Assembly (NCBI RefSeq): GCF_001458775.1
Contig: NZ_CZPZ01000032.1
Span: 62,001 to 126,000, forward strand
From: Candidatus Nitrospira nitrificans
Lineage (GTDB): Bacteria > Nitrospirota > Nitrospiria > Nitrospirales > Nitrospiraceae
Direction of reading: 5' to 3'
DNA length: 64,000 nt
Shown here: positions 52,612-56,594 of the stretch, in pieces
Layout: each line of letters starts with the position of its first letter
Numbering within the stretch: position 1 is the first letter of the stretch
Notes under the pieces: generated by a model
What the model saw: the letters and a program-made list of their open reading frames with translations, nothing else
Databases searched by the model: none
Told to the model about the DNA's origin: nothing
Position numbers and translations under genes: made by a program

Positions 52612-52995
52612 GAACGGCTAAGACGAGGAGTAGTACGCGAGTCGTTTAGAAAGCAGAATGTTCAAAGCGGCTATCCAGCAGGGCCGCAGCGAGTGAAAAG
52701 GCGAGGCGTACGGTTTTGATGTACGTTGAGCCTTTGAACGGTGCGAGAACGAAGCTGGATCCGGTGTCAACATTCTGCAGAGAGAGCTGGTGGATGGTGC
52801 AAACCAGCCTAAGCGTCGCCGAACTCGCCTCCGAGCCGAATCTCTGAACATGAAGTAAGAGATTCCGCCTTGCCTCCGTAAGAGGCAGAATGAAGGGTCT
52901 GACGACCTGTCGGTCCTCAGGCTGAATCAGGGTGGTACCACGGAGTGCGTGAAGCCTTCGTCCCTGGGTCTTATGGGGGATGAAGGCTTTTCTAT
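52612..52995 (+). promoter_or_regulatory. T-box leader controlling leuA (Leu, CUC specifier)
   Basis: Elements in order are: stem I 5' strand with GACGAGGAGTAGTA (52622-52635), its helix CGTTTAG pairing with CTAAGCG, the classic distal block AGAGAGCTGG followed by GGTGCAAACCAGC (52781-52807), and a specifier loop GAACTCGCC with CTC at 52824-52826 (a Leu codon). The T-box AGGGTGGTACCACGG is at 52929-52943 and the terminator at 52952-52995. The TGGT in the T-box would pair with an ACCA 3' end, fitting tRNA-Leu. Uncharged tRNA-Leu should stabilise the antiterminator and switch leuA on. A 126-bp palindromic element sits inside stem I. Confidence 0.85.
52653..52778 (-). repeat. Dispersed palindromic element inserted in T-box stem I
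   Basis: The ends are GCAGAATGTTCAAAG and its inverted partner TTGACACCGG-type arm ending CAACATTCTGC. Internally it shares TCCAGC, GTTCTCG, GTACGCCTC and CTGCGGCC blocks with the copies at 53001 and 55160 (read on the minus strand here). Removing it joins GTTTAGAAA to AGAGAGAGCTGG, restoring a normal T-box stem I. Confidence 0.8.
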
Positions 52996-52996
52996 T
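52952..52996 (+). terminator. Regulated terminator of the T-box leader
   Basis: AAGCCTTCGTCCC pairs with GGGATGAAGGCTT (13 bp, one G-U pair) around a loop of 11-12 bases and is followed by TTTTCTATTTTTA. Its 5' arm lies directly after the T-box, so the two structures exclude each other. Confidence 0.85.
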
Positions 52997-53000
52997 TTTA

Positions 53001-53121
53001 GATCGCTGAAAATGCCTTCCAGCGGTGTTCTCGGTCGCGTGCCTCCCTGCGACGTACCTTGGAGGTACGCCTCTGTCGTCCCGCTCCCTGCGGCCTTGCT
53101 GGAAAGGCATTTTGAGCGATC
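53001..53121 (+). repeat. Second copy of the palindromic element, between T-box terminator and leuA
   Basis: The arms GATCGCTGAAAATGCC and GGCATTTTGAGCGATC form a long stem; the middle has TCCAGC, GTTCTCG, GGTACGCCTC and CTGCGGCCTTGCTGG. Orientation is opposite to the copy at 52653. It ends 25 bases before the leuA start and leaves the GAAGAGGTGG ribosome site intact. Confidence 0.75.
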
Positions 53122-53145
53122 TTGTATAAAAGAAGAGGTGGCACC

Positions 53146-54693
53146 ATGGCACGCATGATCAGAATTTTCGATACGACGTTGAGGGACGGCGAGCAATCGC
53201 CCGGCGCCAGCATGAACGTGGAAGAAAAGGTCATGGTCGCCAAGCAGCTGGCCCGGCTCGGCGTCGATATCATTGAAGCGGGATTTGCCTATAGCTCTCC
53301 CGGCGACTTCGAGGCGGTGCGGCGTATTGCGCAGGAGGTCGAAGGACCGACGATCTGCAGCTTAGCGAGGGCTCGTCCGGAGGATATCGATCGGGCTTGG
53401 GAGGCCTTGAAAGGCGCCCCGAAGGTCCGCATCCATACGTTTCTTTCAACGTCCGATATTCACCTGAAACATCAGTTTCGGATGACGCGCGAGCAGGCCA
53501 AGCAGCGCGCCGTGGAGATGGTCCAGCGTGCGCGGGGTTATGTCGAGGATGTCGAATTCTCTCCGATGGATGCGAGTCGATCCGACCCCTCGTTCCTCTA
53601 TGAGGTGATCGAGGCGGTCATCGCCGCCGGCGCAGGCACCGTGAACATTCCCGACACGGTAGGGTATGCCGTGCCACAAGAATTTGGCCAATTGATCAAG
53701 GGGATATGCGATAAGGTCCCCAATGCCGCACGAGCCGTCATTTCCGTCCATTGCCACAACGATCTGGGTGTTGCGGTGGCGAACAGTTTGGCGGCGATCA
53801 TGAACGGAGCTGGCCAGGTGGAATGTACGATCAATGGGATCGGGGAGCGCGCCGGTAACACATCCTTGGAAGAGATTGTGATGGGACTTCGCACCAGAAC
53901 GGATTTCTATCAGGCGGACACCGGGATTCGAACCGAGGAGATTGCAAAGACCAGCCGTCTGGTCAGCAAGATCACCGGGATGGTGGTGCAACCCAACAAG
54001 GCGATCGTGGGGGCGAATGCCTTTGCCCATACATCGGGCATCCATCAGGATGGCTTGCTCAAGGAAAAGACGACCTATGAAATCATGCGTCCGGAATCGA
54101 TTGGGTTGGTCGAAAGCCAGATGGTGATGGGAAAGTTGTCCGGGCGTCATGCCTTCAGGCAACGTTTGGAAGAATTGGGCTACAAGCTCGGCGAGGTAGA
54201 AGTCAACCACGCCTTCGAGCGGTTTAAGAAACTTGCCGATCAAAAGAGAGAGATCTTCGAGGAAGACCTCGAAGTCATTGTCTCCGAAGAGTTATCGAAG
54301 ATGGCCGAGCGCATTGGGTTGAAGGGACTACAAGTATCGAGTGGAACGGATCAGGTCCCGACGGCCACGGTCGAACTGGAAATCGACGGCACCTCCATCG
54401 TTCAAACCGGGACCGGCGATGGGCCGGTGGATGCCGTGTACCGCACGATTGCCGCCATGACACAGACGAAGAGCCAATTGCTGATGTATGTCGTGAAGGC
54501 CATCACCGGGGGGACGGACGCACAGGGTGAAGTGTCGGTGCGGGTGCAAGAAGATGGGCGGACCGTGACCGGCCATGGCGCCGACACCGATATCATCACC
54601 GCGTCTGCTCGGGCCTATATCAGCGCCTTGAACAAACTGGCCTACCTGGCGACAAAACAGGCCCAAGGCGAGCAGAAGGTGAACTTGATTTGA
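53146..54693 (+). CDS. leuA: 2-isopropylmalate synthase
   Basis: The 515-residue enzyme condenses acetyl-CoA with 2-oxoisovalerate, the first step of leucine synthesis. It has [17 protein letters not shown] at the start, [18 protein letters not shown] and the [15 protein letters not shown] motif, and a C-terminal LeuA allosteric domain ([20 protein letters not shown]) where leucine binds. ATG 53146 follows AGAAGAGGTGG. Transcription is probably controlled by the T-box leader, in addition to feedback inhibition. Confidence 0.96.
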
Positions 54694-55121: not shown

Positions 55122-55159
55122 CAGGTTCTAACGAAGTTCTTTCTAAATAAGAATTGCTC

Positions 55160-55308
55160 GCAGGATGTTCAAAAAGGCCTTTCAGCAAGGCCGCAGCGAG
55201 CGAAGAGGCGAAGCGTACTTTGTTCCGTTGAGTTTCTGAGCCCGCATCGCCGACTTTGCGAGGCGTGCGATGCGAGAACGACGCTGGAGGACTTTTTCAA
55301 CATCCTGC
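55160..55308 (-). repeat. Third long copy of the palindromic element, before leuB
   Basis: The ends are GCAGGATGTTCAAAAAGG and CTTTTTCAACATCCTGC, nearly perfect inverted repeats. Internal blocks on the minus strand are TCCAGCG, GTTCTCGCATCGC, GTACGCTTCGCCTC and CTCGCTGCGGCCTTGCTGA. It sits about 20 bases before the leuB start region and may act as a hairpin in the leuA-leuB transcript. Confidence 0.85.
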
Positions 55309-55329
55309 TAGTCATCGAAAGGAGCCATA

Positions 55330-56404: not shown

Positions 56405-56594
56405 GCAGGATGTTCAAAAAGTCCGCCGCCGGCGTCCCGCCTCGCTTGGAAGCGTGTGAAGCCCGCTTCGCTCGCTCAGCGAGGCGAGCGTATCTCGTGA
56501 AGCGGACAGACGCTGCGGCCATGCCTGTGGCGAGGCGCGTCTTGGCACGCCGGGGTCGGGCGGGTGAGAACAACAGCCTTTTTGAACAACCTGC
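56405..56594. repeat. Longest copy of the palindromic element, after leuB
   Basis: It begins GCAGGATGTTCAAAAAGTCC two bases after the leuB stop and ends CTTTTTGAACAACCTGC. Inside are CCGCCGGCGTCCCGCCTCGC and several GC-rich inverted segments (CGCTCGCTCAGCGAGGCGAGCG). The outer ends match the 18110 and 55160 copies; the core is longer. Confidence 0.75.

Follow-up and report, generated by a model that had tools for sequence, protein, structure and literature searches.

The locus upstream of leuA in Candidatus Nitrospira nitrificans raises the question whether a T-box riboswitch can take a palindromic repeat into its stem I and go on working, and what becomes of such a repeat afterwards. The sequence analysed here, called the window, is a stretch of 64,000 nt of contig NZ_CZPZ01000032.1, for which a first-pass annotation had been made from the letters alone. 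That annotation placed a 126-bp element with inverted ends inside stem I, and the element was found where it had been placed (Table 1) and as it had been described: it is 126 nt long and bounded by GCAGAATGTT...AACATTCTGC, the 18-nt arms of which are 83% complementary and are separated by 90 nt. The explanation that we consider probable is an old insertion of a repeat next to the module that binds the tRNA elbow, with the terminal stem of the repeat retained as a part of the riboswitch and its interior lost repeatedly.

Table 1. Features of the leuA leader and of related repeat copies in the window
Feature	Position	Strand	Basis
Leader of leuA with Leu T-box, from stem I through terminator and U-run, repeat-interrupted	52616..52999	+	Rfam RF00230 match 52737-52968; true 5' part located by aligning relatives
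Stem I, 5' half: GGCU base strand, S-turn AGUA 52632-52635, helix strand CGUUUAG 52643-52649	52616..52652	+	Folding, alignment
Palindromic repeat forming side arm; outer CAGAATG/CATTCTG (52654-52660 / 52771-52777) retained by other species as a 7-bp hairpin	52653..52778	+	Inverted ends, family matches, relatives, covariation, folding
Stem I, 3' half: AGAGA T-loop 52781-52785, apical stem, UGCAA T-loop 52798-52802, helix strand CUAAGCG 52809-52815, base strand AGCC	52779..52837	+	Folding, sequence
Specifier codon CUC (Leu)	52824..52826	+	GAA-CUC in 42/42 arm-bearing species; tRNA-Leu(GAG) in genome
T-box bulge UGGU	52933..52936	+	Complementary to ACCA end of tRNA-Leu(GAG)
Intrinsic terminator hairpin and U-run	52952..52999	+	Sequence, folding
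Second repeat copy, opposite orientation, between T-box terminator and leuA	53000..53122	-	Inverted ends, family alignment
leuA, 2-isopropylmalate synthase	53146..54693	+	ORF; 82-98% identity to relatives' leuA translations
Repeat copy with canonical ends GCAGGATGTTCAAAAAGG...CTTTTTCAACATCCTGC	55157..55311	+	Window matches

The leader has the parts of a class I transcriptional leuA-type T-box (RF00230), namely the K-turn region, the S-turn AGUA/GAA, the specifier CUC, the double T-loop AGAGA / UGxRA, the UGGU bulge and the terminator; it differs from that class in the extra repeat-derived arm 5' of the AGAGA T-loop. T-boxes upstream of leuA have been reported outside the Firmicutes, in Geobacter and Pelobacter (PMC2494555). 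At the apex of stem I the interdigitated double T-loop motif is present as AGAGA and UGCAA. The specifier agrees both with the regulated gene and with the host tRNA-Leu(GAG), which is encoded in the genome and whose 3' end, ACCA, is complementary to the UGGU bulge. The covariance model of RF00230 gave the leader 72.3 bits (E 4.8e-15), compared with a gathering score of 93, because the length of the insert draws the 5' part of the model into the insert; insert-free orthologous T-boxes of the same genus score up to 100.5. Since none of the full-insert T-boxes in the studied set attains the gathering score, annotation based on that threshold will miss them.

The insert is located in the 5' strand of stem I, where it follows the helix lying above the specifier loop and precedes the AGAGA T-loop. 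Its flanks, when joined, are the stem I of insert-free relatives, which bears out the claim that deletion of the element restores a normal stem I. The insert RNA folds at -59.0 kcal/mol, compared with -37.4 +/- 3.3 for shuffled sequences (z -6.6, 0/200), and the fold energies are nearly additive (-94.0 for the whole, -32.7 plus -59.0 for the parts). In minimum-energy folds the core pairs of stem I are identical with and without the insert, so the proposal that the self-folding insert forms an extra arm agrees with the predicted structures. The palindrome can swing out with stem I remaining stacked, because on the opposite strand the apical stem passes directly into the helix, with no unpaired bases in between. 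Such a side arm would not disrupt the helical stack through which the T-loops are brought to the tRNA elbow; the structural roles of the stem I stack and of the T-loops at the elbow have been described (PMC7583486).

The insert belongs to a repeat family of this genome. Genome-wide, 35 blastn matches to it were obtained, the T-box copy included, the next best having 81% identity. As the first-pass annotation had noted, matching elements occur elsewhere in the window: two copies are given in Table 1, and positions 2301-2339 are also among the copies or part-copies. The canonical ends are CAGGATG...CATCCTG, with an internally paired core. Aligned with 11 other copies, the T-box insert showed the inverted ends that define the family, CAGRATG...CATYCTG, and the shared core CCAGC..GGCCGCAG, CGAGGCGTAC..GTACGTTGAG, GCGAGAACG..GCTGG. 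A 190-nt palindrome at window positions 56405-56594 has the family ends (GCAGGATGTTCAAAAAG...CTTTTTGAACAACCTGC) with a different interior, and these ends may be common to several repeat types. A similar repeat copy lies between terminator and leuA at two other loci (L006 and L012), and palindromes are found at that place in many other relatives.

Like REP and MITE-like repeats, the family is non-coding, palindromic and intergenic, occurs in dozens of copies per genome and has the terminal inverted repeats expected of a MITE. It differs from them in its length of 123-155 nt and in that inspection by eye showed no target-site duplication at the T-box, in the empty and filled pairs at ilvC-psd (see below) or around other copies. 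The genome contains a single Y1_Tnp (RAYT-like) transposase gene, with no repeat within 1.5 kb of it; mobilisation of the repeat by a RAYT was therefore rejected.

To place the arm among relatives, T-boxes were detected in 162 of 175 genomes of the taxonomic family, and a tree of 79 Nitrospira and outgroup loci, mostly from metagenome-assembled genomes, was built from the two adjacent genes pssA and leuA. On this tree the extra arm was gained once. It is present in 42/42 species of one clade (support 100/100, bootstrap/aLRT), which includes the window genome, and in none of the other 37 rows, which have 18-22 nt between the landmarks and no trace of an arm. Thus insert-free leuA leaders, for which the first-pass annotation had proposed a search, do exist, in N. 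moscoviensis and in all species outside the arm clade. The pattern extends to two additional genomes from the genus (G141 with a mid-length and G143 with a short arm), and named GenBank contigs repeat it, N. moscoviensis being without the arm and Nitrospira sp. BO4, RBC093, UW-LDO-01 and CTRL-LIN-TMP-bin1 carrying the full insert. Among close relatives the arm site is never empty, a hairpin of at least 19 nt standing in each.

The arm occurs in three forms among the 42 species: full in 9, internally deleted in 4 and short in 29, with landmark spacings of 144-148, 80-87 and 37-41 nt, respectively. In the short arm about 7 bp close a 5-nt loop, and the ends of this hairpin, CAGRRTG...CATTCTG, are those of the repeat, in register with the full copies of sister species. 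In 23 short-arm sequences all seven pairs vary, four of them with changes on both sides, and 91% of the cells pair; a control in which the partner strand was slid destroyed the covariation signal. Since the 7-bp base of the insert is conserved and covaries across the clade, it belongs to the T-box proper in that lineage, whereas the interior of the repeat is dispensable there. The first-pass annotation had stated that an insert conserved in all Nitrospira leuA leaders with covarying pairs would belong to the T-box itself; this holds for the 7-bp base in the 42-species clade, and for neither the rest of the repeat nor the species outside the clade.

Under the explanation that we favour, a member of the family would have entered the 5' strand of the leuA T-box stem I in the ancestor of a clade of at least 42 species, and the riboswitch would, to judge from its sequence, have stayed functional. 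The outer 7 bp would then have been retained as a structural arm, presumably by selection, and the interior deleted repeatedly, leaving most species with a 5-nt loop, the short arms being putative descendants of the full ones; the window genome still has the entire element. Candidate roles of the arm are a contact with the tRNA, a slowing of transcription past stem I or stabilisation of the junction only. It is possible, and we regard it as somewhat unlikely, that the repeat supplied a new functional domain, the arm aiding tRNA binding or co-transcriptional folding of stem I throughout the clade and the full and collapsed alleles differing in switching.

A further copy of the family, which many species of the clade carry between ilvC and psd, served as a control. 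It is absent from about half of the clade's species, and in almost every such case the gap is exactly 12 nt. At eight loci (L144, L151, L154, L171, L174, L180, L185 and L187) the element provides the TAG stop of ilvC; in species without it a TGA lies in the exact 12-nt gap, as if the element had been cleanly excised or had never been inserted. The element at ilvC-psd vanishes without trace and the T-box hairpin is never absent, which argues for selection on the T-box arm. This contrast is not decisive, as the absences at ilvC-psd could be partly ancestral. Orthologous ilvC-psd copies are 94-98% identical at a four-fold divergence of 0.44 (95-98% within one subclade), similar to the conservation of the T-box core, and the slow change of this sequence suggests that the repeat itself may be under constraint.

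The order of change between full and short arms is where the main rival enters. In that account the short hairpin is the old state, which arose without the repeat and resembles its ends by chance, and the full element came later, either in several lineages or once with subsequent recombination between species. Full and mid-length arms are interleaved with short ones on the tree, so that at least 9 changes are needed, and the scatter of the full copies suits a late arrival. So does their relationship: in 175 genomes they form one subfamily, 91-100% identical to the copy at L020 and found only at T-boxes, all other copies reaching at most 87%. Moreover, most short arms carry CAGGGTG, whereas the full copies carry CAGAATG plus an extra 5' A, and for this reason repeated independent collapse to one length is not obvious; the short arms of three subclades have CAGGGT and a landmark spacing of 38 nt in common, and longer linkers accompany the CAGAATG of the full copies. 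Possible alternative histories thus include a short ancestor and an exchange of arms among lineages. However, this account turns the in-register match of the short-arm ends to the repeat ends into a coincidence, and several forms suggest that full arms collapsed to short ones: the 80- and 87-nt intermediates keep both ends with their middles deleted, and L088, nested among full and mid-length forms, keeps their linkers and has an arm of exactly 7 bp plus 5 nt. We therefore consider it rather unlikely that the short hairpin came first. Full inserts are 85-98% identical between lineages at four-fold divergences of 0.26-0.59; horizontal spread, considered on account of this slow divergence, was dropped because the ilvC-psd control is similarly slow, and for the same reason divergence rates leave the order of full and short forms unsettled. 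Some details of insert and linkers are common to L078 and L089, which are not sisters. Recombination tracts around the insert were looked for, and the flanks, within the resolution of such short sequences, track the species tree, the sharing between L078 and L089 being only suggestive. Collapse as the general fate of the repeat was also rejected, the 19-nt mini-hairpin pattern occurring elsewhere in the genus at about chance frequency.

Two further accounts deny the arm a role or the switch its function. The insert might be tolerated junk, a roleless arm on a permissive bulge, retained and kept paired by mutation bias of palindromes. Palindromes do fold on themselves, and the interior can clearly be spared, but the hairpin stands in every member of the clade while about half of those species show a clean absence of the family at ilvC-psd, and compensatory changes maintain the stem; we judge this account very unlikely. 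The first-pass annotation had also suggested that the insertion might have locked the riboswitch, and with it leuA, on or off. Pointing that way are the Rfam score of 72 against a gathering score of 93 and the commoner mismatches in the helix beside the arm (0.44 in 6 bp with full inserts, 0.07 with short arms). The low score, however, stems from the insert length, the predicted pairs of stem I are unchanged, and the nine full-insert genomes show no decay in T-box core or terminator. Specifier, double T-loop and UGGU are intact in 42/42 arm-bearing species and the terminator fits a strict pattern in 41/42, so that a broken switch in the window strain is hardly credible. The weaker pairing next to full inserts may hint at a cost of the insert. 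In one arm-bearing species (L067, genome G112) the T-box bulge reads GGGUGGUAACACG, compared with GGGUGGUACCACG in the 41 others, possibly through damage or an assembly error.

Lineage-specific insertions of unknown origin are a known feature of T-box leaders. In the open-licence literature we found no account of a repeat inside T-box stem I, and the nearest precedent found is in Streptococcus pneumoniae, where a BOX element lies between two trp T-boxes (PMC3049150). There too a small interspersed palindromic repeat is co-transcribed with T-boxes that appear still functional (PMC3049150); the BOX, however, stands between two complete T-boxes, whereas the Nitrospira repeat stands within stem I, with its base conserved and covarying throughout the clade. 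Our results suggest that scrap DNA was turned into a part of a riboswitch. As origin, intermediates and end product can be read in living species, this case allows one to ask directly how foreign sequence is accommodated next to the ligand-binding site of a structured RNA with its function preserved. In two other genera of the taxonomic family (L098 and L099), an extra hairpin, for example GGCGTCCACGCAACAGGGTGGACAGGGTGCGAA, is located in the apical loop of the T-box stem I, which is thus expanded there too, at a place different from that of the arm.
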